From Sphingomicrobium sp. (lineage in GTDB: Bacteria > Pseudomonadota > Alphaproteobacteria > Sphingomonadales > Sphingomonadaceae): a stretch of DNA of 62,971 bases. The translations under genes were made by a program, and so were the position numbers. Numbering within the stretch: the first letter of the stretch is position 1; each line of letters starts with the position of its first letter. Shown here one piece after another: positions 7,775-24,403 of this stretch. The notes under the pieces were generated by a model. That model ran no database searches, was not told the DNA's origin, and worked only from the letters and a program-made list of their open reading frames with translations. The stretch lies in contig JAUJOV010000010.1 in the NCBI GenBank assembly GCA_030447545.1, positions 1-62,971 of the forward strand, given 5' to 3'.

Positions 7775-7775
7775 G

Positions 7776-8144: not shown

Positions 8145-8219
8145 CGGGTCCCCCCATCGGGCTTTCGGCGCGAGTTCCGTTCGGAACCGATCCGCGAGGC
8201 TGCAGGTTCCCGATGCGGC

Positions 8220-8984: not shown

Positions 8985-9474
8985 CGAGCAGGTGGTGCAC
9001 GTCCTCGGCAACATCCATGATCGCGAACCGGGTCATCGTATCGAGCGAATCGAGCGGCACCTGCGGCCAGGGAAGCATCCCGGCGAGATAGAGTGGCCCC
9101 GGCTCCGCCACGGATGACCACATCACCCAGCCACTCAGCGGCAGGCCGAAGAAGGCGATGTAGAAGAGCATGTGCGTCATGTGCGCGATGGTCGTCTGCA
9201 TGCCCATCCGGTCGGCGTCGTTCTGCGGACCAGGCACCAGGATCCGCCAGACTCCCCGCAGAATCGCCAGGATCAGGATCGGCAAGCCTGCTGCGCTGTG
9301 CACCTGGTAGGCGTGGAGCTTGTCGCCGCCGGGCTCGAGAAAACCGGTGTAGAAGCCCCAGCCGAGCTGGAACAGGACGAGTGCGGCCATCAGCCAGTGG
9401 AAGACCACGCCGACCGGCGAATAACGGGCTTCCTCGGTATAGCTGCGCGCCCAGGTTCGAAGCTTCTCGATCAT
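8803..9474 (-). CDS. Cytochrome b561 family protein
   Basis: A membrane-bound b-type cytochrome of about 223 residues that normally passes electrons between the quinone pool and a periplasmic partner. Four transmembrane helices are visible. Likely heme ligands are His26 in VVFHWLMA, the His in HAYQVHSAAG, and His residues in EDVHHLLV and IPAHVAAALKHHFWDR. The ATG at 9474 overlaps the stop of the upstream CtaG-like gene as ATGA. The family usually ends shortly after the motif DVLRGMLP, whereas this reading frame runs about 30 residues further, into sequence opposite the diheme cytochrome c gene. It could be the quinol side of the short electron chain encoded here, but also resembles the Ni-hydrogenase-linked b-type cytochromes only in fold. 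Confidence 0.88.
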   Translation of the reverse strand: MIEKLRTWARSYTEEARYSPVGVVFHWLMAALVLFQLGWGFYTGFLEPGGDKLHAYQVHSAAGLPILILAILRGVWRILVPGPQNDADRMGMQTTIAHMTHMLFYIAFFGLPLSGWVMWSSVAEPGPLYLAGMLPWPQVPLDSLDTMTRFAIMDVAEDVHHLLVILLLLLIPAHVAAALKHHFWDRHDVLRGMLPEIPDWEDPRAGPEHKSRAPRFPMESEAG

Positions 9475-10204
9475 CGCGCGGCCATTCGGCTCTCCCCGCT
9501 GAGCCAGCGGCTCGCGATGACCAGCGCGGCTGCAAGATACAGGCCGGCCGCCGGCGCCCACATGACGAGGCCGGCAAGCTGCTGATCCTCGAGCGGCGTG
9601 AGGCCCCAGGGCAGAGTGGTTGCGAAATGCGGCGCGTACAGAGGCGTGCCGGCGAAGGTGATCAGCGCGCCAAGCAGCCCCATCTGGACCATGGTCGCAA
9701 GAAGCGCCGCCACTGCGGCCGGAGCGGACGCGCGGACAATCGCTATCCACAGTGCGACGGCGGAACCGAGCAGGCTCAGCTGCATCAGCCAGTAGACGCC
9801 GTCGCCCGACAGCGCAGCCGAGTAGAGGGACGGGGAGTGCCAGGCCCAGAAGATCAGCGCATGCACTGCGGCCCACAGCCCCACGCTGCCCCGGACGGAG
9901 CAGCGGCTCGCCGGCAGTGCAAGCACGAGCAAAGGCGCGGCCACGGCGGTCAGCAGTACATGGTGCACGACCCGCGCGCTGAACAGCGCGGAGGTCAGCG
10001 CGCAGAAGGGCGACACGAACAGCAGAACGAGCAGCACGAAGCCGGCTGCGAACCATTTGCGGCGCTCCGGCTCCAGGCGAGCCATCGACAGGTGCCAGCC
10101 GATCGCGAACGCAGCCAGCGCTGCAAGCAGCAGCGGATCGAAATTCCACCGTTGCAGCCAGTCGTGCGGAAGCGGAGCGGCGCCGCAATAGGGGGTCCAG
10201 ACAT
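9471..10204 (-). CDS. ctaG: CtaG-like cytochrome c oxidase assembly factor (probable 1-base loss)
   Basis: Integral membrane protein of the caa3_CtaG family, thought to help copper insertion or assembly of caa3-type oxidases. Six or more helices are visible; conserved features include the ARVVHHVLLTAVAAPLL helix, FWAWHSPSLYSAAL, and APHFATTLPWGLTPLEDQQLAGL near the C-terminus. The family N-terminus, with YCGAAPLPHDWLQRWNFDP, lies upstream of the longest ATG frame. It joins to an ATG at 10204 only if one base is added to the run of five G (plus strand) at 10191-10195, so I propose a homopolymer loss and place the start there. The stop overlaps the b561 start. Family identity agrees with the neighbouring caa3-type subunits. 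Confidence 0.85.
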
Positions 10205-10347
10205 GTCCGCTCGGGAGCGCCAGTTTACGATCCCCGTGGGCTGCTCAGGCGCTCCACAGCTGCGGTGACAGCCCCGAAACCCCTGCAAACTGCACAATTG
10301 AACCGCATCTGCACGCGCCTCTCTCGTCTTGCCTGCTCAGCGCCTTC

Positions 10348-11247
10348 CTAGTGAATGTCGGCTTTCGAACGATACTCGCCCAAGGTGCTGAGTTGCTGCG
10401 AGCGACATCCGGCCGCCTTCCACGCATTCCGCTGCTTGCGGAACGGCAGCGACAGCGAAGGCGCAAAGGCGATCTCGCTCGACCGGCGATAGGCCGGGAC
10501 ACCGATCGCGATCCGCGACTGCGGGACGTCAAGCCGGAAAGTCCCATGGAGACGGTCCCATATGCTCATTCCGCTGGACCAATTGGAATGGGTTTCCGAA
10601 TGCACCGCAGAATGATGGATGCCGTGCATTCGCGGCGTCGTGAGAAGCAGCGCCAGCACGCGCTCCAACCGCTCGGGCAGCCGCAGGTTGCTGTGGTGGA
10701 ACAGGATCGAGAGGAAGAAGAATGTCTGCCAGGCGACGAGCGCGCGCCGGGACGTGCCGATGACGAGCACCTGCAGCGCTCGATACGGTGTCGACATCGC
10801 CATGTCAGCGAAGTGAAAACGCAGCGCCGTCGTCGAGTCAAGGTCGAGGTCGGCATGGTGGACGAGGTGAAATCGCCACAGAATCTGCTCCCGTTTGCTC
10901 GCGACTTGCCACAGATAGAGCTGGTAATCCATTGCCAGCTCGGCGAGCAGAACACTCACAGGCGCGGAAAGCGGGAGCTTCTGGACAAGCCCGCGCCGCC
11001 GCCTGCCGGCGCGTTCGGCGAGCGCGTCCACCACCGGTCGTTCGACCACTGCGACTACAGCCATGCTGAGCGCGCCGAGCGCGAGATTTCTTAGCGTGCG
11101 CCGGGGTTCGGATTGAGTCGGTCGGCGCAGCGGACGCCGTTTCTCGAGCGCATAGACGGCTGCGGCAGCGCTCCCCAGCAACAGCGGCAGCAGGATGCCT
11201 GACCGCAGGGACCTGTGCGAAGCCAAGTTCCACGCCCGATCGGTCAA
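10348..11247 (-). CDS. Fatty acid hydroxylase / sterol desaturase family protein
   Basis: A membrane diiron enzyme of about 299 residues that would hydroxylate or desaturate a lipid using O2. The His clusters of the family are present: WRFHLVHHADLDLD, SILFHHSNLRLP, MHGIHHSAVHSETHSNW. Two to four hydrophobic helices surround them. The substrate cannot be predicted; relatives act on sterols, fatty acids, carotenoids or hopanoid-like lipids. It is on the same strand as the oxidase genes but separated by 143 bases from CtaG, so may have its own promoter. Confidence 0.85.
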   Translation of the reverse strand: MTDRAWNLASHRSLRSGILLPLLLGSAAAAVYALEKRRPLRRPTQSEPRRTLRNLALGALSMAVVAVVERPVVDALAERAGRRRRGLVQKLPLSAPVSVLLAELAMDYQLYLWQVASKREQILWRFHLVHHADLDLDSTTALRFHFADMAMSTPYRALQVLVIGTSRRALVAWQTFFFLSILFHHSNLRLPERLERVLALLLTTPRMHGIHHSAVHSETHSNWSSGMSIWDRLHGTFRLDVPQSRIAIGVPAYRRSSEIAFAPSLSLPFRKQRNAWKAAGCRSQQLSTLGEYRSKADIH

Positions 11248-11747: not shown

Positions 11748-14018
11748 ATGCGCCAAAGATGCGTCATTGCAGTCGAAGGGATCGTGCAGGGCGTAGGCTT
11801 CCGGCCATTCGTGCACGGGCTGGCGGTCGAGCGCAATCTGGCCGGCCGCGTCTGGAACGACACCCAGGGCGTGCGAATCGAGCTCGAGGGCGAATCGGCT
11901 CAGATTGACGGGTTCCTGCGCGAGTTGCGCCACAGGCCGCCGCCGCTGGCCCAGATTTCCGACCTGCGGTCAGAGTTTTCAAAAGCGGTCGGCACCAAGA
12001 GCTTCGTCATCGACAGCAGCCGGGAGGGCGAACGTCGTGCTCCGCAGATCGCCGCTGATGCAGCGACCTGCAGCGAATGCCTGCGCGAGCTGTTCGACCC
12101 GGCGGACCGGCGTTACCTCTATCCGTTCCTGAACTGCACCCACTGCGGCCCCCGCATGACGATCGTCCAGGACGTGCCATACGACCGCTCGAAAACGACG
12201 ATGGCAGGCTTTCCGATGTGCGGGGCGTGCCGCGCCGAATATGAAGATCCCGCCGACCGGCGTTTTCATGCGCAACCGACTGCCTGTCCCGAATGCGGGC
12301 CGCGCCTGTCTATTCGCGGTTCGTCGTGGGAGGAAATGGACGGCGATCCGCTCGACCGCACTCTTCGCGCGTTGCGCGAGGGCAGGATCGTCGCCGTCAA
12401 GGGGCTCGGCGGTTATCATCTTGCCTGTGACGCCGAGAACGAGGAGGGGGTCGCGCGGCTGCGCATGCGCAAGCGCCGCGAGGCAAAGCCCTTTGCAATC
12501 ATGGTCACGGACCTGGACGTGGCCGGTGCCCTGTGCCGGCTCGGCCAAGTGGAGCGGCAAAGCCTGTCTTCGCCCCGCCGGCCGATCATGCTTCTGAAAC
12601 GGCGCGATGGGTGCAGGATCGCACCGTCGGTTGCGCCTGGCCAGCGAGAGCTTGGGCTGATGCTGCCCTACACTCCGCTGCATCACCTTCTCGCGCGCGG
12701 CTTCGGCAGTCCGATGGTCATGACGAGCGGCAACCGCAGCGATCAACCTACGCTTGCCGACGATGACGAAGCGCGGGAGGAGCTCTCCGGGGTCGCCGAC
12801 CTGTTCCTGACGCATGACCGGCCGATCGAGATCCGCTGCGACGACAGCGTCACCCGGATCACGCGCGGGGTCGAGGTTCCGCTTCGCCGGTCACGGGGGT
12901 TCGCGCCGCAGCCGTTGACGCTGCCGTTCGAAGCGAAACGCCCAATCCTTGCCACCGGCGGCGATCTCAAGGCGTGCTTCGGCCTTGTGCAGGGGCGGCA
13001 TGCCTTTCTCAGCCACCACATCGGCGACCTTGCCGAGCTCTCCACCTATCGCGACTTCGGCAAGGCCGTCGCGCATTACCAGCGCCTGTTCGGGATCGAA
13101 CCGGAGATTGTCGCGCACGATATGCACCCCGGCTATCATTCCACCGACTTCGCGGAGAGCCTGGACGGGGTCGGGCGGATCGCAGTCCAGCACCATCATG
13201 CGCACATCGCCGCCTGCATGGCCGACAACGGCGTTGCCGGGCCGGTGATCGGCGTTGCGTTCGACGGGACCGGCTATGGTCTCGACGGCAGCATCTGGGG
13301 CGGCGAGTTCCTGGTTGCGGACTATTCGGCGTTCGAGCGGATTGGCTATTTGCGCCCGGTCCTGCTTCCGGGCGGTGATCGGGCGGTGCGGCAGCCGTGG
13401 CGTTCGGCTGCGGCTCATCTCCATACGGCATCCCTGCTGGAAGCAGGCGAAGAATTATTCGCCGGACGGGTCGCCGGAGCCGAATGGCGTCTGGTTGCGC
13501 AAATGCTGCAGCGCAAAGTCGGCTGCGTCGAAACGTCCAGCATGGGCCGCCTGTTCGACGCCGTTGCCGCGCTGCTCGGGCTGGCCGACGAGGCGCTGTT
13601 CGAGGCACAGGCTGCGATGGCCCTCGAAGCGGCGGCGGATGAGCGGGAAAACGGCTCCTCTCGGATTCGCGTGATCGAGCAGAACGGCGCGATTCTGTGG
13701 GACGCACGCACGATCATCAAAAGCGTGCTTGAGGATCGTCGCCACGGCGATGCGACGCCGCTGATCGCCGCGCGCTTCCATAACAGCATCGCCGAAGCGA
13801 TCGTGACGGTGTGCCGCCTTGCGCGCCGCCGCCATGACATCGGCACGATTGCGCTAAGCGGCGGCACTTTCCAGAACGCCATGCTTGCCGACAGGACGGC
13901 CGAACGGCTTTCAGAGGATGGATTTTCGGTCCTCCTCCACCGCCAGGTGCCGTGCAACGATGGCGGTCTGTGCCTGGGGCAAGCGGCGGTTGCCGCTCAT
14001 GCGCTGACGGAGGACTAG
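11748..14018 (+). CDS. hypF: Carbamoyltransferase HypF
   Basis: First enzyme of cyanide-ligand synthesis for the [NiFe] centre: it uses carbamoyl phosphate and ATP to make a carbamoyl-adenylate and passes the carbamoyl group to HypE. Domains in order: acylphosphatase-like (residues 1-90, with VEGIVQGVGFRPFVHG); two zinc-finger segments (CSECLREL...CTHCGPR and CGACRAEY...CPECGPR, about 105-185); a YrdC-like domain (about 200-380); and a Kae1-like domain with HHHAHIAACMADN and AFDGTGYGLDGSIWGGE. Full length at 756 residues with no missing motif. It opens the hydrogenase operon; the next gene begins two bases after its stop. Unlike the genes further right it carries no frameshift. Confidence 0.97.
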   Translation: MRQRCVIAVEGIVQGVGFRPFVHGLAVERNLAGRVWNDTQGVRIELEGESAQIDGFLRELRHRPPPLAQISDLRSEFSKAVGTKSFVIDSSREGERRAPQIAADAATCSECLRELFDPADRRYLYPFLNCTHCGPRMTIVQDVPYDRSKTTMAGFPMCGACRAEYEDPADRRFHAQPTACPECGPRLSIRGSSWEEMDGDPLDRTLRALREGRIVAVKGLGGYHLACDAENEEGVARLRMRKRREAKPFAIMVTDLDVAGALCRLGQVERQSLSSPRRPIMLLKRRDGCRIAPSVAPGQRELGLMLPYTPLHHLLARGFGSPMVMTSGNRSDQPTLADDDEAREELSGVADLFLTHDRPIEIRCDDSVTRITRGVEVPLRRSRGFAPQPLTLPFEAKRPILATGGDLKACFGLVQGRHAFLSHHIGDLAELSTYRDFGKAVAHYQRLFGIEPEIVAHDMHPGYHSTDFAESLDGVGRIAVQHHHAHIAACMADNGVAGPVIGVAFDGTGYGLDGSIWGGEFLVADYSAFERIGYLRPVLLPGGDRAVRQPWRSAAAHLHTASLLEAGEELFAGRVAGAEWRLVAQMLQRKVGCVETSSMGRLFDAVAALLGLADEALFEAQAAMALEAAADERENGSSRIRVIEQNGAILWDARTIIKSVLEDRRHGDATPLIAARFHNSIAEAIVTVCRLARRRHDIGTIALSGGTFQNAMLADRTAERLSEDGFSVLLHRQVPCNDGGLCLGQAAVAAHALTED

Positions 14019-14020
14019 GC

Positions 14021-14284
14021 ATGTGCCTCGCCGTTCCCGGCCAGATCGTCGCCTTCGTCAGCGATGACAGGCAGCTGGCGAAAGTCGACGTTTCCGGGGT
14101 TCGCCGGACCATCAACGTCGCGCTGCTTTTGCCCGAAGGACTGGAGGTGGGCGACTGGGTGCTGATCCATGTCGGCTTCGCGATGAGCCGAATCGACGAA
14201 GAGGAAGCCCAGCGACAGCTTGACTGGCTTTCGCAGCTGGGCAGCGACGAATTGGCCGAGTTCCGTGAGGTCGATCCGGGATGA
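14021..14284 (+). CDS. hypC: Hydrogenase maturation chaperone HypC
   Basis: Small chaperone (87 residues) that works with HypD to carry the Fe(CN)2CO unit and deliver it to the large-subunit precursor. The essential N-terminal MCLAVPGQI is intact, with Cys2 as the iron/HypD contact, followed by the usual beta-barrel region ending in GDWVLIHVGFAMSRIDEEEA. Length is standard. It is separated by two bases from hypF and overlaps the following SIS-domain gene as ATGA, so it is part of a tightly coupled operon. Confidence 0.96.
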   Translation: MCLAVPGQIVAFVSDDRQLAKVDVSGVRRTINVALLLPEGLEVGDWVLIHVGFAMSRIDEEEAQRQLDWLSQLGSDELAEFREVDPG

Positions 14285-14814
14285 GCGCGGCGCTGCTGGA
14301 GCTTGGTCGATGCCGCGTGGAGCGCGTGGCGGCCGCTAACGAGCGATTTTTCGACGATTTCGTGGATACGCTCGTCGCCGCCTCGAGAGACATGGCACAG
14401 CGCTTTCGCGACGGAGGCCGCCTGTTCGTCCACGGCAGCGGGGCTTCGGCCACGGACGCGAACCACGTTGCGGTGGAATTCCTCCATCCAGTGATCGTGG
14501 GCCAGCCGGCGCTCCCGGCGATCGCCGTCAGTGACAATGGCGCCCCTGCGCTCGCGGGTGCCCTGCGAAGTCACGACATCCTTTTGCAGATCGACTGCGG
14601 GGACAGCGGCGAACTGCTCGCGACCGGAGGCAAGTCTGAAATTCTCACGATCCGGCTGAGCGGCGCCGATGCAATCACGACGTCGAACCATCCAGATCAT
14701 TTGCTGATTGTCCCTGACGAAGACCCGACGATCGTACAGGAAGTGCAGGAGACGGCCTGCCACGTGCTCCATGAGCTTACCCACCTGTTCCTGAAGTCGG
14801 AGCTCCGCGCATGA
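14281..14814 (+). CDS. SIS-domain protein A (degenerate phosphoheptose-isomerase-like)
   Basis: A 177-residue sugar-isomerase-fold protein related to GmhA/DiaA. The phosphosugar-binding loop, GNGGSAxDAxH in canonical members, reads GSGASATDANH at residues 52-62. The segment after it, VAVEFLHP, keeps a Glu near the catalytic position, and the C-terminal EVQETACHVLHELTH keeps the helix with the conserved His. The middle of the domain is shortened compared with GmhA (about 190-195 residues). It starts inside the stop of hypC and ends inside the start of a second SIS gene (ATGA in both cases). Its position between hypC and hypD, rather than in a lipopolysaccharide locus, argues for a role with the hydrogenase, but none is established to my knowledge. 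A DnaA-interacting DiaA-like role is unlikely in this context. Confidence 0.8.
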   Translation: MSAALLELGRCRVERVAAANERFFDDFVDTLVAASRDMAQRFRDGGRLFVHGSGASATDANHVAVEFLHPVIVGQPALPAIAVSDNGAPALAGALRSHDILLQIDCGDSGELLATGGKSEILTIRLSGADAITTSNHPDHLLIVPDEDPTIVQEVQETACHVLHELTHLFLKSELRA

Positions 14815-15455
14815 GCGGCCTTGCCGACCTTTATCCGTTCCTCGATTCGAGCCGAGCCGATGCAGATGCAACGCTGCTGGATGCGCGCCGCTCCGCCTTG
14901 CAGAAAGCCGACGACATCGCTGCGCTTCGGATGGCGGTGTGGGAGCGCCACGCAGACGATCTCGTGACAGCCGCGAGGTTGCTCGCCCGCAGCTTCCGCG
15001 CCGGCGGCAAGGTCCTCGCCTTCGGCAATGGCGGAAGCGCCACAGACGGGCGCGATCTCGTCATCGACCTGGCGTCGGGGCCCCACCCACTCCCCGCAAT
15101 CGATCTCACGCAGGATTATGCCATGGTCACGGCCGTCGCCAACGACGTCGGCTTCGACAAGATCTTCTCACGTCAGATCATCGCGCATGGGATGGCGGGC
15201 GACGTCGCCGTCGGATTTTCGACCAGCGGCGAGAGCAGGAACGTGAACGAAGCGTTCGCCCAGGCACGGCGCCAGGGGCTCAGGACGATCGGCTTCTCCG
15301 GGAATCAGGGTGGACGAATGGCCGAGCCCGGCTTTGTCGATGTGCTGATCGTTGCTCCCTCACCACACAACACGCGCGTGCAGGAGGCGCAGGCGACGGC
15401 ATGCCACACCATGTTGGCGATGCTGCGCGCGCTGCTCTGCGGGGACGCCGAATGA
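14811..15455 (+). CDS. SIS-domain protein B (phosphoheptose-isomerase-like)
   Basis: A 214-residue SIS-fold protein with a better preserved sugar-phosphate loop than its neighbour: GNGGSATDGRDLVIDLASG, followed by AVGFSTSGESRNVNEAF, the second phosphate-binding loop, and a C-terminal RVQEAQATACHTMLAML helix. An N-terminal helical extension of about 40 residues precedes the domain. The Glu used as base by GmhA is replaced by Asp or Leu in the aligned segment, so isomerase activity is doubtful. It overlaps both neighbours by ATGA, forming the order hypC, SIS-A, SIS-B, hypD. The two proteins probably arose by duplication and could form a heteromer, since SIS proteins work as dimers or tetramers with shared sites. 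Confidence 0.83.
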   Translation: MSGLADLYPFLDSSRADADATLLDARRSALQKADDIAALRMAVWERHADDLVTAARLLARSFRAGGKVLAFGNGGSATDGRDLVIDLASGPHPLPAIDLTQDYAMVTAVANDVGFDKIFSRQIIAHGMAGDVAVGFSTSGESRNVNEAFAQARRQGLRTIGFSGNQGGRMAEPGFVDVLIVAPSPHNTRVQEAQATACHTMLAMLRALLCGDAE

Positions 15456-16567
15456 AATTCGTCGACGAATATCGGGATTCGGATCTCGCCCACAGGATCG
15501 TCGAAGAAGTCGACCGACTCGCCGCCGGCAAGCCTTACAAGCTGATGGAGGTGTGCGGCGGCCACACCCATACGATCTACCGCCACGGCATTCAGCAACT
15601 CCTGCCCGGCAACATCGAGCTGGTGCACGGGCCTGGATGCCCCGTCTGCGTGATTCCGATGGGCCGCCTTGACGATGCCATAGCGATTGCCCGCAACCCG
15701 GGCGTGATCCTTGCGACCTTCGGCGACATGCTGCGGGTGCCCGGCGGCAGCGGCAGCCTCCTCGACGCGCGGGCGCAAGGCGCGGATGTGCGGATCGTCT
15801 ATTCGCCGCTCGATGCTCTGAAGCTGGCAAGCAGCAACCCGCATCGCGAAGTGGTGTTCCTGGCGATCGGTTTCGAAACGACCGCGCCGTCCACCGCGCT
15901 GACGCTGCTTCAGGCGAGGCAGGCCGATGTCCCGAACTTCTCGGTCTTCTGCAACCACGTCACGATCCTGCCGGCTCTCAAGGCGATCCTCGATTCTCCC
16001 GACATGCGGCTGCAGGGCTTCATCGGACCGGGTCATGTGTCGACCGTGATCGGCACGGATCCCTACAGCTGGATTCCGGAACGCTACGGGCTGCCCATCG
16101 TCATTTCAGGCTTCGAGCCGACCGACCTCCTTCAATCGGTGCTGATGCTTGTGCAGCAGCTGAGCGAGGGGCGTTGCGCGGTCGAAAATCAATATGGGCG
16201 CGTGGTGCGTGCAGGCGGCAATGCGCCGGCGATCGACGCCATAAGAAAGACGATGCGGGTGCGGCCGCAATTCGAATGGCGCGGTCTGGGGTTCATCCCG
16301 GCCAGCGCCTTCTCTCTTCGGGCGGAGTTCGCCCGGTGGGATGCCGAAGAGCGCTACGCCGTCCCCGGCCACCGGGTAGCGGACCCGCGCGCCTGTCAAT
16401 GCGGCGAAGTGCTGAAGGGCGTGATCAAGCCGTGGGAATGCCGCGTGTTCGGAACCGCCTGCACCCCCGAGCGTCCGATCGGAACGTGCATGGTGTCCTC
16501 GGAAGGCGCCTGCGCGGCCTATTACAACTACGGCCGCCATGCGCTCAAGGCGGAGGCGGTTTCGTGA
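15452..16567 (+). CDS. hypD: Hydrogenase maturation protein HypD
   Basis: Iron-sulfur scaffold (371 residues) on which, with HypC, the Fe(CN)2CO group is built. Signature motifs are all present: EVCGGHTHTIYRHG, HGPGCPVCVIP, FLAIGFETTAPS, and a C-terminal [4Fe-4S] region with CQCGEVLKGVIKPWEC, FGTACTPERPIGTC and EGACAAYY. The ATG at 15452 overlaps the SIS-B stop; the longer upstream reading frame has no family resemblance. The gene ends in a GTGA overlap with hypE. Confidence 0.97.
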   Translation: MKFVDEYRDSDLAHRIVEEVDRLAAGKPYKLMEVCGGHTHTIYRHGIQQLLPGNIELVHGPGCPVCVIPMGRLDDAIAIARNPGVILATFGDMLRVPGGSGSLLDARAQGADVRIVYSPLDALKLASSNPHREVVFLAIGFETTAPSTALTLLQARQADVPNFSVFCNHVTILPALKAILDSPDMRLQGFIGPGHVSTVIGTDPYSWIPERYGLPIVISGFEPTDLLQSVLMLVQQLSEGRCAVENQYGRVVRAGGNAPAIDAIRKTMRVRPQFEWRGLGFIPASAFSLRAEFARWDAEERYAVPGHRVADPRACQCGEVLKGVIKPWECRVFGTACTPERPIGTCMVSSEGACAAYYNYGRHALKAEAVS

Positions 16568-17655
16568 GTGGAGTCGAGCGGCTCGGCGAGCAGCTCGAGC
16601 GGATCGAGCGTGTGAGGAAAAGCCGCCGCGGCCGCTTCTACCTGCGCGACGACTTCATCACCATGAGCCATGGGTCGGGCGGCAAGGCGACGCACAACCT
16701 CGTCGAGGGGGTCTTCGCCACGGCGTTCTCCAACCCCGTGCTCGATCGGATGGACGATTCCGCGCTCCTCCAACTGTCGGGAGCGCGCCTCGCCTTTACC
16801 ACAGACAGCTACGTCGTTCGTCCGCTGTTCTTCCCCGGCGGAGATATCGGCCGCCTGGCCGTGCATGGCACCGTCAACGATCTTGCAGTCGCGGGTGCAG
16901 TGCCACTCTACCTGTCGGTCGGTGTCGTGCTCGAGGAAGGGTTCGCCGTGGCCGAGTTGCGGCGCATCGTCGAGTCGATGAAATCGGCCGCCGAGGAAGC
17001 CGCCGTGTCAATCGTCACCGGCGACACCAAGGTGGTGGAACGCGGCAAGGCGGATGGGGTTTACATCAATACCGCCGGCATTGGGCTGGTCCGCCCCGAC
17101 GCATCGGTATCGGCGGGGAACGCAAGGCCGAAAGACCAGATACTGATCTCCGGTCGCATCGCCGAACATGGAGTGGCGATCATGATGGCGCGCAACGATC
17201 TCGACCTGGAGACGCAAGTCGAAAGCGACACGGGACCGGTGCACGAGCTTGCGGCGGCGCTGATCGATCGGCTCGGGAGCGACGTGCGAACGCTCAAGGA
17301 CCCGACGCGCGGCGGCGTTGCAACAGCGCTCAACGAGATCGCGCTCCAGTCGCAGGTAGGGCTCGTCATTGACGAGCAGCGGGTGCCGATCCGCCCCGAC
17401 GTGCGCGGCGCCTGCGAGCTGCTCGGAATCGACCCGCTCCACATGGCCAATGAAGGCAAGCTGCTGGCGGTGGTTGCCGCCGGGCGCGGCGATAACGCGC
17501 TCGACGCTCTTCGCGGTCATCCTCTCGGCCTTGACGCTGCAATCATCGGCGAAGTCCGAACCGAGCCCGAGGGTCTGGTGGCGAGCCGCACGGCGGTGGG
17601 CGGCGAGCGGATCCTCGACATGCTGGTTGGAGACGCGTTGCCCCGAATTTGCTAA
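16564..17655 (+). CDS. hypE: Carbamoyl-dehydratase HypE
   Basis: Converts the carbamoyl group received from HypF into thiocyanate on its C-terminal cysteine and donates cyanide to HypC-HypD. 363 residues, PurM/ThiL-like fold. Visible: ITMSHGSGGKATHNLVE near the N-terminus, DDSALLQL and TTDSYVVRPLFFPGGDIG for ATP binding, GTVNDLAVAGA, TGDTKVVERGKADG, and the required terminal sequence PRIC with Cys as the last residue. GTG start at 16564 overlaps the hypD stop. The upstream frame extension is a shadow of hypD. The small-subunit gene begins 10 bases after its stop. Confidence 0.97.
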   Translation: MSGVERLGEQLERIERVRKSRRGRFYLRDDFITMSHGSGGKATHNLVEGVFATAFSNPVLDRMDDSALLQLSGARLAFTTDSYVVRPLFFPGGDIGRLAVHGTVNDLAVAGAVPLYLSVGVVLEEGFAVAELRRIVESMKSAAEEAAVSIVTGDTKVVERGKADGVYINTAGIGLVRPDASVSAGNARPKDQILISGRIAEHGVAIMMARNDLDLETQVESDTGPVHELAAALIDRLGSDVRTLKDPTRGGVATALNEIALQSQVGLVIDEQRVPIRPDVRGACELLGIDPLHMANEGKLLAVVAAGRGDNALDALRGHPLGLDAAIIGEVRTEPEGLVASRTAVGGERILDMLVGDALPRIC

Positions 17656-17665
17656 GGATTGTTCG

Positions 17666-18943
17666 ATGGTGATGGTGCAGAAGGACAGCAGCGGCCTGTA
17701 CCCGGAGGCCCGCCTGGAGCCGAAGCCGAACGAAGCCGCGAAACTGCGGCCCCGGCGAATTCGCGAGGGCCCGCTCGATGCAGTCCATGTCTTCTGGCTG
17801 GCAGGGATGAGCTGTGACGGCTGTACGGTCTCCGTGTCAGGCGCAACGCATCCCAGCATCGAGGATCTTCAGAACGGGACCATTCCCGGACTGCCGAAGA
17901 TGATCCTGCACCATTACGTCCTGTCGACTGAATCCGGAGAGGAATTCGTCGAGAATTACCGCATGGCGTGGAAAGGCGAACTCGAAAGTCCCTATGTCGT
18001 GGTTTACGAGGGCTCGATCGCTAACGAGGAAATCGCACACCGAACCGGAGGCTTCTGGGCGAGCATGGGGACGGAGCCGGACCCCGAAGAGCCGGAGGGG
18101 CAGCGCTCGATACCTACGGCCGAGTGGATGAAGCGAATGGCCCCGGGGGCCGCGGCGGTCATCGCGATCGGCACCTGCGCCACCTGGGGCGGCATCCCAG
18201 CGAGCGCTGGCAACCCTACCGGCTCGATGAGCCTGATGGATTACCTGGGCAAGGATTATCGCAGCGCGTTCGGCTTGCCGGTGATCAACGTTCCGGGCTG
18301 CGCTCCCCAAGGGGATAATTTCACCGAAACCGTCGCTGCGATTTTCTACTATCTGCAAGGCATTGGACCGATTCCGGACATCGACGCGCTCGGCCGACCG
18401 GCCTGGCTGTTCGCCGAGACGGTCCATCGCGGCTGCACTCGCGGATCCTGGTACGAGGAAGGCACCTTCGCCAAGGAATATGGCGACAAGGAATGCCTGG
18501 TCGAGCTCGGCTGCTGGGGCCCCGTGGTCAACTGCAACATCGTCAAGCGCGGTGCGATCAATCACGTCGGCGGCTGCATGGAGGCCGGCGGCGTGTGCAT
18601 CGGCTGCACGATGCCGGGTTTTCCGGACAAGTTCGAGCCGTTCTACACGGAACCTCCCGGTTCGATCATCTCGACCACCGGTTCCAAAGCGCTCGGCTCG
18701 TTCATCCGGCCGCTTCGCAAGGTGACTCAGAATTCGCAGAACCGGGAGCCGCGGTGGGACGCCGAGCATGATGTGCCGAGCGCCTGGAGCGAGGTCGGTG
18801 AGCCCGGCCCCGTGAAGAAGGTCGAAGAGTGGCTCTATCGAATGTGGCAGGGCACGAACGGGGAGAGGCCCGGGCGCGAGGGGAAAGATAGAAACTGGGG
18901 CGGCACTCGCCCGGGACGCGACGAGGACTACCCGACGGGCTGA
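17666..18943 (+). CDS. hhyS: [NiFe] hydrogenase small subunit, group 1h (Hhy)-like
   Basis: Electron-transfer subunit carrying three iron-sulfur clusters. 425 residues from the ATG at 17666, which follows an AAGGA site; the longer open frame upstream overlaps hypE and is not coding. Cluster-binding segments: WLAGMSCDGCT (Cys50, Cys53), GTCATWGG, VPGCAPQGD, VHRGCTRGSWYEEG, ELGCWGPVVNCN and GGCMEAGGVCIGCTMPGFPD. There is no twin-arginine signal and no C-terminal membrane anchor, and the protein is longer than a classic periplasmic small subunit. These are traits of the actinobacterial-type, O2-tolerant high-affinity enzymes (group 1h), in which I recall one proximal-cluster ligand being Asp; I cannot identify that ligand here by eye. 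Without a signal the enzyme should lie in the cytoplasm. Confidence 0.93.
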   Translation: MVMVQKDSSGLYPEARLEPKPNEAAKLRPRRIREGPLDAVHVFWLAGMSCDGCTVSVSGATHPSIEDLQNGTIPGLPKMILHHYVLSTESGEEFVENYRMAWKGELESPYVVVYEGSIANEEIAHRTGGFWASMGTEPDPEEPEGQRSIPTAEWMKRMAPGAAAVIAIGTCATWGGIPASAGNPTGSMSLMDYLGKDYRSAFGLPVINVPGCAPQGDNFTETVAAIFYYLQGIGPIPDIDALGRPAWLFAETVHRGCTRGSWYEEGTFAKEYGDKECLVELGCWGPVVNCNIVKRGAINHVGGCMEAGGVCIGCTMPGFPDKFEPFYTEPPGSIISTTGSKALGSFIRPLRKVTQNSQNREPRWDAEHDVPSAWSEVGEPGPVKKVEEWLYRMWQGTNGERPGREGKDRNWGGTRPGRDEDYPTG

Positions 18944-18976: not shown

Positions 18977-19264
18977 ATGGCCGATTACGATCAATGGGCG
19001 CTTTGGTGGGCCGCAGGAGCCGCGGTTGTCCTCATCGCCGCTGCCCTGTTGATCTGGATCCTGCTCGTCGCCCGCGGCATCGAGCGCCACGCGCGGCGGG
19101 CACTGGAAGCCGCCCGCCGCATCGAAGCGAACACCGGACCGACCTGGGGTCTCGTCGGCGCCCTCAACGCGCTGGAACGAGTGCGGGCGAGTGTGAAGGC
19201 CGCCGAGACGGCGCACGAAGGCGATTCGCAAGAGCCCGCGATGATCGAGGAGATGGGCCGATGA
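18977..19264 (+). CDS. Hydrogenase-locus small membrane protein 1
   Basis: First of five tiny membrane proteins lying between the small and large hydrogenase subunit genes. 95 residues: one transmembrane helix (about 8-31, with WALWWAAGAAVVLIAAALL), then a basic stop-transfer stretch ARGIERHARR and a long, charged, probably helical tail rich in Ala, Glu and Arg that contains ARRIEANTG. Positive charges after the helix place the tail in the cytoplasm. The ATG at 18977 follows a GGGAG site; an in-frame TTG at 18959 is possible. It overlaps the next gene as ATGA. No family is recognised. Confidence 0.8.
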   Translation: MADYDQWALWWAAGAAVVLIAAALLIWILLVARGIERHARRALEAARRIEANTGPTWGLVGALNALERVRASVKAAETAHEGDSQEPAMIEEMGR

Positions 19265-19542
19265 CCGCAACGGAGCTCGGCTGGATTACGCTTGGCGCCG
19301 GGGTTCTCGTTGTCGCGATCGTGACCCTCTTGCTGGTCATTCTGATCCGGACGGTGGACCGCATCAGGGCGGTGCTGGACGACGTCTGGACGACTGGACA
19401 GGAGATCGCCAACAATACCGCCAATCTGGACCTGCTGCGTCGAATGAACATGGTCGCCGTCGATACGCGTGCCACCGCGCGCACGCTCGCGGACCGGCGA
19501 CGCCGCGGAGTGGCCGGCGCGCCGGGGGAGGGCGCCCGATGA
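19261..19542 (+). CDS. Hydrogenase-locus small membrane protein 2
   Basis: 93 residues, not recognised as a known family. One transmembrane helix (about 7-29, WITLGAGVLVVAIVTLLLVIL) is followed by IRTVDRIRAVLDD and an amphipathic helical tail with the segment QEIANNTANLDLLRR, resembling the EANTG region of protein 1. The C-terminus is Arg-rich. It starts within the stop of gene 1 and ends within the start of gene 3 (ATGA both times), so equal or coordinated synthesis is likely. A cytoplasmic tail is predicted by the positive-inside rule. Confidence 0.8.
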   Translation: MTATELGWITLGAGVLVVAIVTLLLVILIRTVDRIRAVLDDVWTTGQEIANNTANLDLLRRMNMVAVDTRATARTLADRRRRGVAGAPGEGAR

Positions 19543-19838
19543 TCTGGCTGGCGCTTGCAACCGCGATCCTCGTTCTGCTGCTGTTCTGGATATTGTGGAC
19601 GGCGCTCGCTCGACTCTCGGCAGCGCTGATGGAGATCGGGGGCCCCTCGACCAGCTCGCCGGCCAGCGTGATGGCGAAGATCCGCTGGGGCGTGCGCGCG
19701 ATCGAGCGTCAGACCGACGGATTTGTGCCGCGAGCCCGTGAGCTCACCGACAATCTTTCGGCTCTGGCCAATGAACTCGGCTCGATTGCGGGCCCTGCCG
19801 CGGAGCGCACTCCACGCCGGCCGGGAGAGGCGCAATGA
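19539..19838 (+). CDS. Hydrogenase-locus small membrane protein 3
   Basis: 99 residues. The N-terminus itself is a transmembrane helix (about 2-24, IWLALATAILVLLLFWILW), followed by a linker rich in Ser/Pro and a helical tail containing KIRWGVRAIERQTDGFVPRA and a heptad-like ELTDNLSALANELGSI. No Cys or His able to bind a cofactor is present, so it is more likely structural (anchor, scaffold) than an electron carrier. ATGA overlaps on both sides. Confidence 0.8.
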   Translation: MIWLALATAILVLLLFWILWTALARLSAALMEIGGPSTSSPASVMAKIRWGVRAIERQTDGFVPRARELTDNLSALANELGSIAGPAAERTPRRPGEAQ

Positions 19839-20035
19839 GCGACGCGCCGTCTGCGGTCCTGATCATCTGGTGGGCGACGCTAGCCGCGGTGCTCCTGATC
19901 GGCGTTCCAGCCGCAACTCTGTTCCTGCACCGGATCTGGGGCGGGTCGCAAACGATCCGCACTTACGCCGCGGACACACGTGCGGCCGCGGAAGGCATCG
20001 CGCGCAACCTCGCGCCTGAGGGAAACGAGTCATGA
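19835..20035 (+). CDS. Hydrogenase-locus small membrane protein 4
   Basis: The shortest of the set, 66 residues: a transmembrane helix (about 8-30, LIIWWATLAAVLLIGVPAATLFL), then HRIWGGSQTIRTYAADTRAAAEGIARNL. The tail again has the alternating Ala/Thr/Ile pattern with a final A-x-x-I-A-x-N, similar to proteins 1 and 2. It has one His just after the membrane helix. Coupled by ATGA to both neighbours. Confidence 0.78.
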   Translation: MSDAPSAVLIIWWATLAAVLLIGVPAATLFLHRIWGGSQTIRTYAADTRAAAEGIARNLAPEGNES

Positions 20036-20286
20036 GCGTGCTGATCTGGCTGACGGCCGCGGTCGCCGCCGCCGTAGTCCTGGTTCTCGTCGGCTATCTC
20101 GTCGGCACCGGAATTAAGCTCACGCTCGCATTGCGCGACGTCAAGCACCTGGCCGGTGCGCTCGAGCGGGCAGCCGAAGGCACGATGCCGCTCGCGCAAG
20201 TGATTGACGGCCTCCACTCCGACCTGCGGCGGCTCGGCGAGGATGCCGACCGGGCCGCGGATCGGCTGGGCCCGCGACAAGGCTGA
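20032..20286 (+). CDS. Hydrogenase-locus small membrane protein 5
   Basis: 84 residues: N-terminal transmembrane helix (about 3-26, LIWLTAAVAAAVVLVLVGYLV), then a helical tail with LRDVKHLAGALERAAEGTMP and LHSDLRRLGEDADRAADRL, which has heptad-like hydrophobic spacing compatible with a coiled coil. It ends 11 bases before the large-subunit start, with the large subunit's own AAGGG site in the gap. It completes a set of five one-span proteins with the same layout, suggesting a multi-subunit membrane platform for the hydrogenase. Confidence 0.8.
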   Translation: MSVLIWLTAAVAAAVVLVLVGYLVGTGIKLTLALRDVKHLAGALERAAEGTMPLAQVIDGLHSDLRRLGEDADRAADRLGPRQG

Positions 20287-20297
20287 AGGGAAAGAAT

Positions 20298-22184
20298 ATG
20301 TGCTTCAAGAACCTGCCGATCGACTTCGACGAATCCGGCCGGGCCTTTTTGAAGGAAGCCATCCCCGATCCCTATAATCAGCGGGACATCGTAGCCAGTC
20401 CGCCGCCGCAGCTCGATCGAGGCAAGATCGAGGAGCTGCTTGCACGCAACGGCTACATCCAGTCGAAGGATTACGATCCCGTCACGCGCGTCGCAGGTGC
20501 GCTCGCGTTCCACACCGTCTGTAATTTCAAGGAACGCAAGGTGATCGAGGCGCGCTCGATGGCGACATTATTCCGTGGCTACGAAGTCATCACCATGGGG
20601 CGCGACCCGCGCGATGCAATCTTCATCACCAGCCGCGCCTGCGGGGTGTGCGGCGGCGTGCATTCCACCTGCTCGGCCATGGCCACGGAAATGGCCTTCG
20701 GCATCTGCCCGCCGCCGTTCGGCATCGTCATGCGCAACATCCTGCTGGTGCTCGATTTCCTCTACGACAATCCGCTGCACCTGTTCCTGCTGGCCGGCCC
20801 CGATTATTCCGAGCAGGTGGTCAAGCAGACCAGCCCCGAGCAGCTCGAGAGAGCCGCCACCTGGCTGTGCCCGCACTCCGACGTGCACGGCCACCGCACC
20901 ATGGCAGACCTGATGCGGGCGATGAATCCGCTTACTGGGGAATTGTACCTGGACGCGCTCCACATGACCCGGCTGACGCGGGAGGCCTATTCTCTCATCG
21001 GCGGCAAGTATCCGCACCCGCAGACCATCGTGCCGGGCGGCCTCAGCGCGACCGTCGATCCTTACGTCATGAACGAGCTGTTCCTGCGGCTGCAAAAGTT
21101 CTTCGATTTCTCGAAGAGGGTGGTCGGCGTCTGGGAGGACCTCACGGCCTTCTTCTACGAGCAGGACCCGCTCTATCGAAAGGTCGGCACGCGTAGCAGG
21201 AACCTCATCGACACCGGCATATTCGATCATCCCGACGTCTACGACGCGCGCTATGAAAACGCCGGCAAGTGGGGAGACAAGAGATGGGCGACGCCGGGCG
21301 TAATCCTCGACGGCGAGCTGGTCACGACGGACCTTCACCAGATCAACATCGGCATCGAGGAGTTCGTCGACCATTCCTATTACGAGCAATGGACCTCCAC
21401 CCGGCACGAAGCTGATCCGGCGGGAAATCCGCTTAGCCGCTTTCACCCGTGGAACGAGGAGACCAGGCCAAGGCCGGAGGGCCACAACTGGAAGGAACGT
21501 TATTCGTGGAGCAAGTCACCGCGCTGGGACCGCCAGGCGGTCGAGGAGGGCTGCTACGCCCGGCTGTGGAACACCGCGGTCGGCAGGAAGATGCCGGAAA
21601 GCCGCTACATGACCTCAACCGGCCATTCGCTGCAGATGAAGCTGCCGAGGGGCAGGCTTCCGGAGATGGAGATCGAATGGTCGGTGCCCGAGGACTGGAA
21701 CGCGTTCGAACGCAACCGCGCCCGCGCCTACTGCATCGCCTTCCATGCGCTCGTCGCGCTCGAGAACTGGGAAATCGGAATGCATCTTCTGCGGCAGGGG
21801 GAGACCGCGATATCCACCGACTTCACGCCGCCCAAGAAGGGGCAGCAGCTCGGCGTCGGCTTCTGGGGCGCCGGCCGCGGCGGCCTGACCCATCATCTGG
21901 AGATCCAGGACGGTGTCGTCGCGAATTACCAGATTCTGACTCCCTCGACCTGGAATGCGTCGCCGCAGGACCCGTGGGGCAATCCGGGTCCCTATGAGGA
22001 AGCGGTGCTCAACACGCCGCTGATCGAGAGCACGGACGATCCGCAGAAATTCAAGGGCATCGACATTCTCCGTGCAATCCGCAGCTTCGATCCGTGCATG
22101 CCCTGCACCACCCATGTGCACGTCAGCGGGTCGGACCGGGTGATCACCACCGACGTCAACACTTGCGCATGCGGAGTTGAGTGA
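20298..22184 (+). CDS. hhyL: [NiFe] hydrogenase large subunit, group 1h (Hhy)-like
   Basis: Catalytic subunit, 628 residues, binding the Ni-Fe(CN)2CO site and oxidising H2. The N-terminal ligand motif is TSRACGVCGGVHSTCS (Cys115, Cys118) and the C-terminal one is DPCMPCTTH (Cys600, Cys603, His606). A 22-residue extension follows His606 and should be removed by the maturation protease encoded downstream. The two motifs have the CGVCGGVH / DPCMPC form that I associate with group 1h. The start ATG follows AAGGGAAAG. Separation of the small- and large-subunit genes by 1.35 kb of small membrane-protein genes is unusual, since the two are normally adjacent. Confidence 0.95.
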   Translation: MCFKNLPIDFDESGRAFLKEAIPDPYNQRDIVASPPPQLDRGKIEELLARNGYIQSKDYDPVTRVAGALAFHTVCNFKERKVIEARSMATLFRGYEVITMGRDPRDAIFITSRACGVCGGVHSTCSAMATEMAFGICPPPFGIVMRNILLVLDFLYDNPLHLFLLAGPDYSEQVVKQTSPEQLERAATWLCPHSDVHGHRTMADLMRAMNPLTGELYLDALHMTRLTREAYSLIGGKYPHPQTIVPGGLSATVDPYVMNELFLRLQKFFDFSKRVVGVWEDLTAFFYEQDPLYRKVGTRSRNLIDTGIFDHPDVYDARYENAGKWGDKRWATPGVILDGELVTTDLHQINIGIEEFVDHSYYEQWTSTRHEADPAGNPLSRFHPWNEETRPRPEGHNWKERYSWSKSPRWDRQAVEEGCYARLWNTAVGRKMPESRYMTSTGHSLQMKLPRGRLPEMEIEWSVPEDWNAFERNRARAYCIAFHALVALENWEIGMHLLRQGETAISTDFTPPKKGQQLGVGFWGAGRGGLTHHLEIQDGVVANYQILTPSTWNASPQDPWGNPGPYEEAVLNTPLIESTDDPQKFKGIDILRAIRSFDPCMPCTTHVHVSGSDRVITTDVNTCACGVE

Positions 22185-22703
22185 GTGGGAAGAACGCTGG
22201 TCGGTGGCGTTGGCCACTACCATTTGTGCGATTTTTCTGTCGGGCCGGCGCTGAGTGAACGGCTCGCCGCCGAGGCTTGGCCGGACGACGTCGTGGTTGA
22301 GGATCTGAGCTATGGGCCGGTGGTCGTCTGGCACAGGCTGACGGACGAGCAGCCGCCCTTCGAGCGCTGGGTCCTTTTCGGCGCAACGCGTCGGGACCGC
22401 GCGCCTGGCACGATTACCGCATATCGCTGGGACGGGGTCCTGCCCGGCACCGAAGAAATCCAGGCCCGCGTCGCGGAGGCGGTCGGCGGCACGGTGGATC
22501 TCGACAGCCTCGTGATCATCGCCGCCGCGCTCGGTGGCGCTCCCTCGCAAACATGCGTGATCGAGATCGAGCCGCTGATCGAAGAGGTCGGAGAACGGAT
22601 GAGTGCCCCGGTGGAGCGCGCTTGCGAGCAGACCCGCGCGCTTGTGCGGTCGATCGTCGCCGGCACATCGCCGCCTCTGCCCAATGCACCTCTCGGAGGC
22701 TGA
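22185..22703 (+). CDS. Maturation-protease-like protein lacking the catalytic residues
   Basis: 172 residues, starting with GTG directly after the large-subunit stop. The N-terminus GGVGHYHLCDFSVGPALSERLA parallels the GxGNxLxxDDGxG motif of the HyaD/HupD protease family, and VVVEDLSYGPVVVWHRL occupies the place of the second strand. The Asn and the metal-binding Asp/Glu and His of true proteases are not in their places. It therefore looks like a non-catalytic paralogue of the next gene. Possible roles are recognition of the large-subunit precursor or of the small subunit, but this is inference. I know of no characterised homologue. Confidence 0.65.
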   Translation: MGRTLVGGVGHYHLCDFSVGPALSERLAAEAWPDDVVVEDLSYGPVVVWHRLTDEQPPFERWVLFGATRRDRAPGTITAYRWDGVLPGTEEIQARVAEAVGGTVDLDSLVIIAAALGGAPSQTCVIEIEPLIEEVGERMSAPVERACEQTRALVRSIVAGTSPPLPNAPLGG

Positions 22704-22709
22704 GCCGCG

Positions 22710-23228
22710 ATGGGCGGCATTCTCGTGGCAGGCATGGGCAACGTCCTGAGAGCGGACGATGGCTTCGGAGTGGCCGTCGCGCAGGCGCTTGCGGCGCGCT
22801 CGTTGCCGCTGCAGGTGCGGGTCATTGAAACCGGGATCGGCGGCATGCATCTCGTCCACGAGCTGATGGAGGGGTTCGATGCGCTCGTGATCGTCGATGC
22901 GGTCGATCGCGGCGCAGAGCCGGGCACGCTTTTCATACTCGAGCCTGAAGCCTCCGACCCGAACAGTTTAACCCCGCAGGAGGCGCAGGCGCTGGTCTCC
23001 GACATGCACAACACGGTGCCGGCCCGCGTGTTGATGCTCGCCAAGGCGCTCGGCGTGCTGCCCGGGATCGTGAGGATCGTCGGCTGTCAGCCAGCCGACT
23101 GCGATCCAGTGTCGATGGACATGAGCGGCGCTGTGCGGCACGCAGTGGACACGGCAGTCATGCGGATCGAGGAGTTGATCGAAGAGGTGATGGTGGCGAC
23201 CGAGGAAAGCCATGCCGAACGGGCTTGA
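22710..23228 (+). CDS. hupD: Hydrogenase maturation endopeptidase (HyaD/HupD family)
   Basis: Removes the C-terminal extension of the large subunit after the Ni-Fe centre is in place. 172 residues. The family motif GMGNVLRADDGFGVAVA carries the metal-binding Asp16; Asp63 in LVIVDAVDRG and His100 in SDMHNT are the other two expected metal ligands (E. coli HybD uses Glu16, Asp62 and His93). The last 17 bases overlap the next gene. The 22-residue tail on the large subunit confirms that a substrate exists in this operon. Confidence 0.92.
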   Translation: MGGILVAGMGNVLRADDGFGVAVAQALAARSLPLQVRVIETGIGGMHLVHELMEGFDALVIVDAVDRGAEPGTLFILEPEASDPNSLTPQEAQALVSDMHNTVPARVLMLAKALGVLPGIVRIVGCQPADCDPVSMDMSGAVRHAVDTAVMRIEELIEEVMVATEESHAERA

Positions 23229-23586
23229 CCCCGTCGAGCGGCTCCGCTGCCGGGACGAGGTGCTGCAGGTCCTCTTCTGGCTCTCGGGCGAAGGGTTCGA
23301 AAAGGACATGACTCCGGAAGGAGTCGCGAAATTCACCGGCCTCGACACCGACGTCGTCCGATCGGTGCTGGCGGACGCCGTTGCAGCCGGTCTTGCCGAA
23401 GCGGTTTCCGGCGGCCGATTTGAACTGAGCAGGGACGGCAGGCGCGAAGGGGGCCGCCGCTTCGTGGAAGAATTCGCCGACATCCGTGCCCGCGAAACGC
23501 ATGGCGGCGGATGCAGCGACCCGGATTGCGACTGCCATACCGGAATGGCGGCGCCCTGCATTCACGCTCACCACGGAGCCTCATGA
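23212..23586 (+). CDS. Winged-helix protein with Cys/His-rich metal-binding tail
   Basis: 124 residues, unknown family. Residues 5-85 look like a small winged-helix domain (DEVLQVLFWLSGEGF, TPEGVAKFTGLD, LADAVAAGLAEAV, then GGRFELSRDGRREG as the wing). The C-terminal tail holds Cys101, Cys106, Cys108, His109, Cys116, His118, His120 and His121, dense enough for one or two metal sites. The gene overlaps the protease gene and is two bases before the CooC-like ATPase. Together with that ATPase, and because no hypA or hypB lies in this window, it could serve as a nickel chaperone; alternatively it is a metal-sensing regulator of the operon. Confidence 0.75.
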   Translation: MPNGLDPVERLRCRDEVLQVLFWLSGEGFEKDMTPEGVAKFTGLDTDVVRSVLADAVAAGLAEAVSGGRFELSRDGRREGGRRFVEEFADIRARETHGGGCSDPDCDCHTGMAAPCIHAHHGAS

Positions 23587-23587
23587 G

Positions 23588-24403
23588 ATGAAGATCGCGG
23601 TCGGTGGCAAGGGCGGCTCGGGCAAGACGACATTTTCGGGGACACTCGCCCGTGCGCTCGCCCAGTCGGGACATCGAGTGCTGGCGATCGATGGCGATTC
23701 GAACCCCAATCTCGCCGTCACGCTCGGCATCCCAGGCGGCGCCGCACAGGAAATCCCTGCATTGCCGCGCGACCTGCTCGTCGATGCACCGGCCGACGGC
23801 GGCGCTCGCCGCCGGATGCTCGGCAGACCGCCAGCCGAAGTCATCGAGAGCTATGGCGTCGCTGGCCCGGACGGGATTCACCTGATCCTGGGTGGCCGCG
23901 TCGGCCATGCCGGAACGGGCTGCATGTGCGGTGCGCATGCGCGGGTCCGGACGCTGCTTGGAGAGCTGATCGGCCGGGAGTGGCAGGATCAGGACGTCAT
24001 CGTCGACCTTGAGGCAGGGCTCGAAAACTTCAGCCGCGGCACGCCCCGTTCCGTCGATGCCATTATCGTCGTGCTCGAACCATTCTACCGGTCGATGGAA
24101 ACCGGCCGGAGAGTCTGGGAACTCGCTCGTGAACTGGGCGTGGGGCGGGTCTGGGCCGTCGCCAACCGTATCCGCAGCGAGGCCGATCTCGACGCGGTCC
24201 AAAGCTTCTGTGAAGCTCACGGTACGGAGCTGATCGGAGCTCTCCCGTTCGACGAGGCGCTGCTCGACGCCGACCGCGCCGGCAAGGCGCCGATCGATCA
24301 CGACCCTTGCTCGCCCGCAGTGATGCAGGTGCGCAGGATAGCAGAAAGTCTGTTCGACCGACCAATCAGGGGAAAAGCCGGATCGGAGGCAGAGCCGGCC
24401 TGA
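23588..24403 (+). CDS. CooC-like P-loop ATPase, candidate nickel insertion factor
   Basis: 271-residue SIMIBI-class ATPase of the MinD/CooC type. Deviant Walker A GGKGGSGKTT at residues 6-15, switch region DGDSNPNLAVTLG, and DLEAGLENFSRG as Walker B/switch II. A CxC motif, GCMCGAH, sits at Cys112-Cys114; in the carbon monoxide dehydrogenase nickel factor CooC1, as I recall, the dimer binds Ni through a CxC at the same residue numbers. CooC usually serves CODH, but no cooS is present and the gene is embedded in a hydrogenase operon. It is therefore a good candidate to replace or supplement HypB in loading nickel. A short gap of 26 bases separates it from the last gene of the locus. Confidence 0.88.
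   Translation: MKIAVGGKGGSGKTTFSGTLARALAQSGHRVLAIDGDSNPNLAVTLGIPGGAAQEIPALPRDLLVDAPADGGARRRMLGRPPAEVIESYGVAGPDGIHLILGGRVGHAGTGCMCGAHARVRTLLGELIGREWQDQDVIVDLEAGLENFSRGTPRSVDAIIVVLEPFYRSMETGRRVWELARELGVGRVWAVANRIRSEADLDAVQSFCEAHGTELIGALPFDEALLDADRAGKAPIDHDPCSPAVMQVRRIAESLFDRPIRGKAGSEAEPA

Follow-up and report, generated by a model that had tools for sequence, protein, structure and literature searches.

The window, that is, the whole 62,971 nt stretch of contig JAUJOV010000010.1 from Sphingomicrobium sp. analysed here, carries a hydrogenase gene cluster in which five short genes lie between those for the small and the large subunit (Table 1). This placement, the five open reading frames (ORFs) with one N-terminal membrane span each and the four ATGA overlaps joining them had been given in a preliminary description made from the letters of the DNA, and all were confirmed: every junction is an overlap of 4 nt, and each protein has one hydrophobic segment with a best 19-residue Kyte-Doolittle mean of 2.36-3.13. 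The same description held that Cys and His pairs for cofactors are lacking; Cys is indeed absent from the five window proteins, but His occurs 2, 0, 0, 1 and 2 times, respectively.

Table 1. Genes of the hydrogenase cluster in the window.
Feature	Position	Strand	Evidence
hypF, hypC, two SIS-domain genes, hypD, hypE (maturation)	11748..17655	+	ORFs
Hydrogenase small subunit hylS (hhyS in the preliminary description)	17666..18943	+	NCBIfam models, all below curated cut-offs; 18-row alignment
HylTM1, single-span, type A, 95 aa	18977..19264	+	ORF, profile, hhalign
HylTM2, single-span, type A, 93 aa, ANNT motif	19261..19542	+	ORF, profile, hhalign, AlphaFold2
HylTM3, single-span, type B, 99 aa	19539..19838	+	ORF, profile, hhalign, AlphaFold2
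HylTM4, single-span, type A, 66 aa, tail shortened	19835..20035	+	ORF, profile
HylTM5, single-span, type B, 84 aa	20032..20286	+	ORF, profile, hhalign
Hydrogenase large subunit hylL, DPCMPCTTH near C-terminus	20298..22184	+	
HybD-like protein	22185..22703	+	TIGR00072 36.4 bits, under cut-off 47.45
HybD/HupD-type maturation protease	22710..23228	+	TIGR00072 117 bits, above cut-off
Conserved accessory protein, Cys/His-rich C-terminus	23212..23586	+	
CooC/MinD-type P-loop ATPase	23588..24403	+	PF01656, PF00142

Among the maturation genes, hypF, hypC and the SIS-domain genes have homologs in relatives and one SIS gene matches PF13580, hypD and hypE were named from sequence and gene order only, and single-query tblastn returned no hypA or hypB homolog in the stretches of the clade described below. 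HylS has a CDGC proximal motif and a C-terminal extension, and neither a Tat signal nor a membrane span was seen by eye. The HybD-like protein, which adjoins the normal HybD protease, appears degenerate as a protease, the usual metal ligands being absent by eye; it had a tblastn match in 18 of 19 relative loci. CooC-type ATPases were matched in 15 of these 19 loci, with up to four matches in some Actinobacteria. At positions 4290-11247, on the reverse strand, terminal oxidase genes (COX1, and COX2 with cytochrome c) adjoin the cluster together with genes for another cytochrome c protein and CtaG; a fatty-acid-hydroxylase-family gene lies in the same region, and the cluster of the acidobacterial locus L059 also has one nearby.

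For the collection of relatives, the large subunit of the window was aligned with a partial copy of 60% identity found in a genome of the same genus, and two peptide patterns were used, so that the 19 loci obtained are a lower bound: 17 full-length clade members (54-63% identity in the best segment), a group 1h relative (L071, 42%) and a partial locus which ends before the region (L072). The first contig pattern scan had given 43 pattern matches and no relative. The enzyme had previously been taken for an Hhy (group 1h) hydrogenase, an assignment which is not supported; by gene architecture, the window enzyme is a member of group 1l. For this group, five short predicted transmembrane proteins between the subunit genes, HylTM1-5, are described in an excerpt of PMC9561532, which cites Ortiz et al. 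2021, and five such proteins lie between the subunit genes of the window, which differs in its short TM4 (66 aa, compared with 97-117 aa in eight orthologs). The novelty implied for the five-gene insert was thus lost, since it was already in print under this name. The adjacent subunit genes with DUF5947 and DUF6084 and the Asp of the CDGD motif that mark group 1h were not found in the window, and single-query tblastn gave no DUF5947 or DUF6084 homolog in the clade stretches. In a large-subunit tree of 15 clade, five 1h and 14 other rows (built without L057, L064, L070 and the partial L002, and carrying a long-branch warning), the clade (99/99) was sister to 1h (100/100). The proximal motif has Cys in 15 of 15 clade rows versus Asp in three of three 1h rows, and the C-terminal extension of the clade is absent from these three, in a small-subunit alignment that excludes L064, L065, L070, L036 and L038. 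Group 1h (5AA5) therefore resembles the window enzyme as a sister clade with a cytoplasmic two-subunit core, but differs in sequence (42-43% identity), in Asp for Cys in the proximal motif, in its DUF5947 and DUF6084 genes and in having no HylTM in five loci (L035-L038 and L071; five profiles, fetched stretches). Two hypothetical membrane proteins are reported for the 1h operon of Methylacidiphilum in an excerpt of PMC7174314. Group 1l has been reported from Bacteroidota, Deinococcota and others; since the two-pattern scan returned none from these phyla, the sampled clade may be part of 1l only.

All 17 full-length clade loci, which come from four phyla, have four or five HylTM homologs, so that conservation in relatives, on which the preliminary description had staked its reading, was found. 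The synteny count proposed there gave five single-span ORFs in the gap between the subunit genes, in the order of the window, in eight of the 17 loci (L054 from Chloroflexota; L055-L058 and L060-L062 from Pseudomonadota). In the other nine the HylTM genes lie outside this gap. Six loci from Pseudonocardiaceae (L063-L066, L068, L070) have, in terms of the two paralog types A and B defined below, A, A, B divergent upstream of the small subunit gene and A, B as a second block, this second block lying on a separate contig in the genome of L070. Upstream of the small subunit gene, L067 and L069 carry four genes (A, A, A, B), and L059 has four (A, B, A, B). With the TM4 profile, each of the 17 clade genomes gave a match, and the genome of L071 gave none. 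With the TM2 profile, which was not tuned to the forms linked to CO dehydrogenase described below, 289 genomes of the class yielded only the window's own genome and two weak matches rejected as artefacts, one with five internal stops and one covering the span only. Searches with HylL gave any match in 27 of 385 genomes of the class, the only close one being the window's own; only the own match among 398 genomes of the phylum at E<=1e-80; and five matches, all already known, among 297 genomes of the actinobacterial family at E<=1e-200.

The actinobacterial members of the sampled clade correspond to group 1m (hhmSL). For this group, reported from Actinobacteriota, the excerpt of PMC9561532 lists adjacent subunits, HybD, an FeS assembly protein, CooC, TPR, BirA and DUF1059, as well as two small single-span proteins, which are HylTM homologs; five were found here in the six Pseudonocardiaceae loci, compared with the two of that text. 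Adjacent subunit genes as well as TPR, NifU-type and DUF1059 genes distinguish group 1m from the window. Adjacent subunits, HybD-type proteins and CooC were seen among L063-L070, with not all features in all loci; TPR was seen in L063 only, and NifU-type and DUF1059 genes in L065 and L068, with the DUF1059 of L065 just below the cut-off. In several relatives, an HhyE-like N-terminal domain is encoded together with a domain that is Rieske-like or NifU-like. No HhyE-like protein was found in the genome of the window, which is 70% complete.

In 61 related genomes, the clade was represented by the window's cluster and the one partial copy, and two other genomes had weaker hydrogenase matches. In a first tree, which contained wrong-frame outgroup rows, the partial copy belonged to a group of eight proteobacterial rows (100/100) without the window, and the window joined L054 and L059 at 82/86, a placement to be taken as provisional after a second tree built with checked ORFs. 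These separate positions suggest that the two clusters may have been acquired separately. Misbinning of the contig was rejected, as its composition agrees with that of the other contigs, slightly less so in the first 27 kb.

Profiles built from the window and eight relatives find all five window frames at E values of 1e-22 to 1e-34, the window being itself a training row, and find homologs in nine loci outside the training set. For the closest pair, L056 and L057, dN/dS was 0.04-0.10 across all five genes, and for L055 and L058 it was 0.11-0.37; many dS values were saturated in more distant pairs. Chance ORFs are ruled out by the homologs in untrained loci and by this purifying selection. Searches of Pfam and NCBIfam gave sub-threshold matches only for the window proteins, and profile searches of the PDB matched designed coiled coils, helical bundles and a few unrelated chains, which are read as sharing a common heptad pattern. 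Profile comparison with hhalign separated type A (TM1, TM2, TM4) from type B (TM3, TM5), with about 97% probability within types; across types, TM1-TM5 reached 94% and TM2-TM5 33-51%, and TM3 had no link to type A (at most 7%). The origin by duplication suspected in the preliminary description is supported by these two paralog types.

Over 45 proteins, five Lys/Arg were counted on the N-terminal side of the span versus 147 in the 25 residues after it, the N-terminal sides being shorter (0-26 residues) and one of the five coming from a row that starts upstream of its ATG. The hydrophobicity of the tails is periodic in all five families, with a peak at 101-106 degrees per residue that was reached in none of 1000 shuffles per family; as the nine related rows were treated as independent, this significance is overstated. 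A turn, which mostly contains Thr and was located by patterns picked after the alignments had been viewed, is flanked by amphipathic stretches. The tails are thus predicted to be cytoplasmic amphipathic helices, with the N-terminus outside. AlphaFold2 models of the monomers, calculated from paralog-mixing alignments, gave one helix (residues 3-86, mean pLDDT 87) for TM2 and helices at 2-34, 41-59 and 62-89 (mean pLDDT 81) for TM3, the two models having pTM values of 0.39 and 0.42; Foldseek returned no match for the TM2 model.

The preliminary description had assigned the set to a hydrogenase, and a role restricted to hydrogenases is not supported, as the same family adjoins aerobic CO dehydrogenase genes. 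An exclusive linkage to hydrogenases was ruled out by extra TM4-type matches in a genome of Pseudonocardiaceae (G812), in which contig C72 carries a second complete five-gene set. The order on one strand is coxM, coxS, coxL, an XdhC-type gene and a coxG-like gene, followed by A, B, a DUF1059-like gene, A, A and B. Genes for VWA and MoxR-type proteins, presumably like coxE and coxD, come after the set on the opposite strand. The CoxL protein scores 1062 bits with TIGR02416, the model for aerobic CO dehydrogenase (cut-off 991), and has AYRCSFR, which we take to be the form I signature of CoxL. A match on contig C1 of this genome lies inside long repetitive frames and was taken as spurious.

A profile of TM4-type sequences (A11) had matches in 31 of the 297 genomes of Pseudonocardiaceae, and neighbourhoods were fetched for 20 of the 45 listed matches. 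Aerobic CO dehydrogenase genes lie directly upstream, with coxL next to the set, in 16 of these 20. Fifteen of the 16 sets are complete, with three A and two B genes arranged A, B, A, A, B to the extent that overlapping frames allow an order to be given; the sixteenth (L092) has two frames at its contig end. The other four include L089, with a partial 1m large subunit 87% identical to that of L063, and L093, which starts near a contig end; for L105, with two sets, and L106, with a single one (A, A, B, A, B), no hydrogenase or coxL was found in the fetched stretch. HylTM-type genes directly downstream of coxMSL and coxG were observed at L088 (the C72 set), L090-L092, L094-L104, L107 and L108. 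The window and the 19 hydrogenase loci yielded no homolog of coxL or coxG. Among 240 genomes of the family searched with CoxL, 50 had a match at E<=1e-250, and these were taken as included among the 297 searched with A11. All 20 genomes with a CoxL 79-100% identical to the G812 reference are in the A11 list, and none of the 30 with only a 52-57% identical CoxL; the 52-57% type of CO dehydrogenase thus manages without HylTM. The HylTM1-5 architecture of group 1l is known; what is new is the wider distribution of the family, including CO dehydrogenase clusters.

Hydrogenase and CO dehydrogenase have neither a fold nor a cofactor in common. Each is a cytoplasmic enzyme that supplies the respiratory chain. 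Because the module is common to these two enzymes, a membrane mount is its best reading: HylTM1-5 would probably serve two unrelated cytoplasmic quinone-feeding dehydrogenases as a hetero-oligomeric bundle or stalk. The membrane anchor or oligomer scaffold of the preliminary description is therefore the best-fitting role, which we infer with somewhat more confidence in view of the CO dehydrogenase linkage. A single helix of each HylTM would cross the cytoplasmic membrane, the N-terminus facing outwards and the amphipathic helical tail reaching into the cytoplasm. Three proteins of type A would pack with two of type B, and the resulting stalk would hold the dehydrogenase at the membrane, so that electrons pass to quinone. 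The C-terminal extension of HylS may dock to the bundle, and an HhyE-like protein may also act alongside HylTM. A function of the set as a quinone conduit is possible. Weighing against the mount are the nine hydrogenase loci with their HylTM genes elsewhere than between the subunit genes, the sets of L105 and L106, and the CO dehydrogenases of 52-57% identity. A more far-reaching proposal, which we put forward only tentatively, is an enzyme-independent platform of three A and two B into which H2 and CO trace-gas dehydrogenases plug and whose helical stalk gives access to quinone, as a many-gene counterpart of the HucM tube.

Several known systems offer partial likenesses. Among the papers listed for membrane proteins of these hydrogenases, for CoxG and for CO dehydrogenase clusters, none addressed a function or a shared set. 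In Oligotropha, membrane contact is held necessary for electron transfer from CO dehydrogenase, coxG mutants have a functional CO dehydrogenase and grow slowly on CO, and a role of CoxG in drawing the enzyme to the membrane, where quinone would be reduced, has been proposed (excerpt of PMC4240915). CoxG is alike in its proposed part in taking a cytoplasmic dehydrogenase to the membrane, and coxG adjoins the set in the cox clusters, but it is a soluble-type SRPBCC protein, is not homologous to HylTM by any test and is present together with it. HucM of the group 2a hydrogenase Huc forms a helical tube carrying quinone (excerpt of PMC10017518). The amphipathic helices of its stalk link a cytoplasmic hydrogenase to the membrane, with which the periodicity of the HylTM sequences is in agreement, but HucM is one protein forming a homotetramer, no sequence similarity to HylTM was seen, and HucM was not named among the PDB profile matches listed at E values up to 1. 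Isp1, a b-type cytochrome, and Isp2, an iron-sulfur protein, of groups 1e and 1g (excerpt of PMC11018855) are likewise encoded by extra genes between subunit genes, but HylTM have no cytochrome or iron-sulfur motifs. For a group 1h enzyme without an anchor, an excerpt of PMC7174314 describes association with the membrane via an unknown partner and a higher affinity there, the apparent Km for H2 being 140 nM on the membrane versus 300 nM for the isolated enzyme.

Other explanations of the set were weighed against the membrane mount. HylTM could be assembly or targeting factors that help to fold, mature or deliver the enzyme at the membrane and stay outside the working complex, which would suit their position among maturation genes and their split into blocks of three and two in the hydrogenase clusters of Pseudonocardiaceae; the two enzymes have unlike metal centres and maturation genes of their own, which makes a common maturation role less likely, and three A and two B are kept in both contexts, so that we regard this explanation as improbable. 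That the set itself carries electrons, for example through a metal site in TM2, is brought to mind by a C-x2-C-P-x-C motif terminating TM2 in six of nine orthologs (L055-L058, L061, L062), but is highly unlikely, given that this motif is absent from the window, L054 and L060, that the nine TM2-type frames of L059 and the actinobacterial loci (that of L068 scoring best as TM4) have no Cys, and that conserved heme or iron-sulfur ligands, as expected of a cytochrome b or Isp partner, were not found in HylTM.

The least probable explanation, to which we give hardly any weight, is that unrelated passenger genes adjoin these enzymes by chance. It could draw on the family matches of the window proteins, all of them sub-threshold, and on the two loci whose sets had no hydrogenase or coxL in the fetched stretch (L105, L106), but is opposed by the occurrence in 17 of 17 hydrogenase loci from four phyla, by the 20 of 20 versus none of 30 partition by CoxL clade and by the purifying selection on the HylTM genes.

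In oligotrophic desert soils, group 1l is described as the uptake-hydrogenase lineage of highest abundance (excerpt of PMC8528921), and two cultured strains with 1l genes showed no substantial H2 consumption in one study (excerpt of PMC10305171). How electrons are handed over to the membrane from cytoplasmic high-affinity hydrogenases and CO dehydrogenases is a long-standing question. If the membrane mount is true, one duplicated family, present in groups 1l and 1m and in one CO dehydrogenase clade, would offer a solution shared by the enzymes that remove atmospheric H2 and CO.
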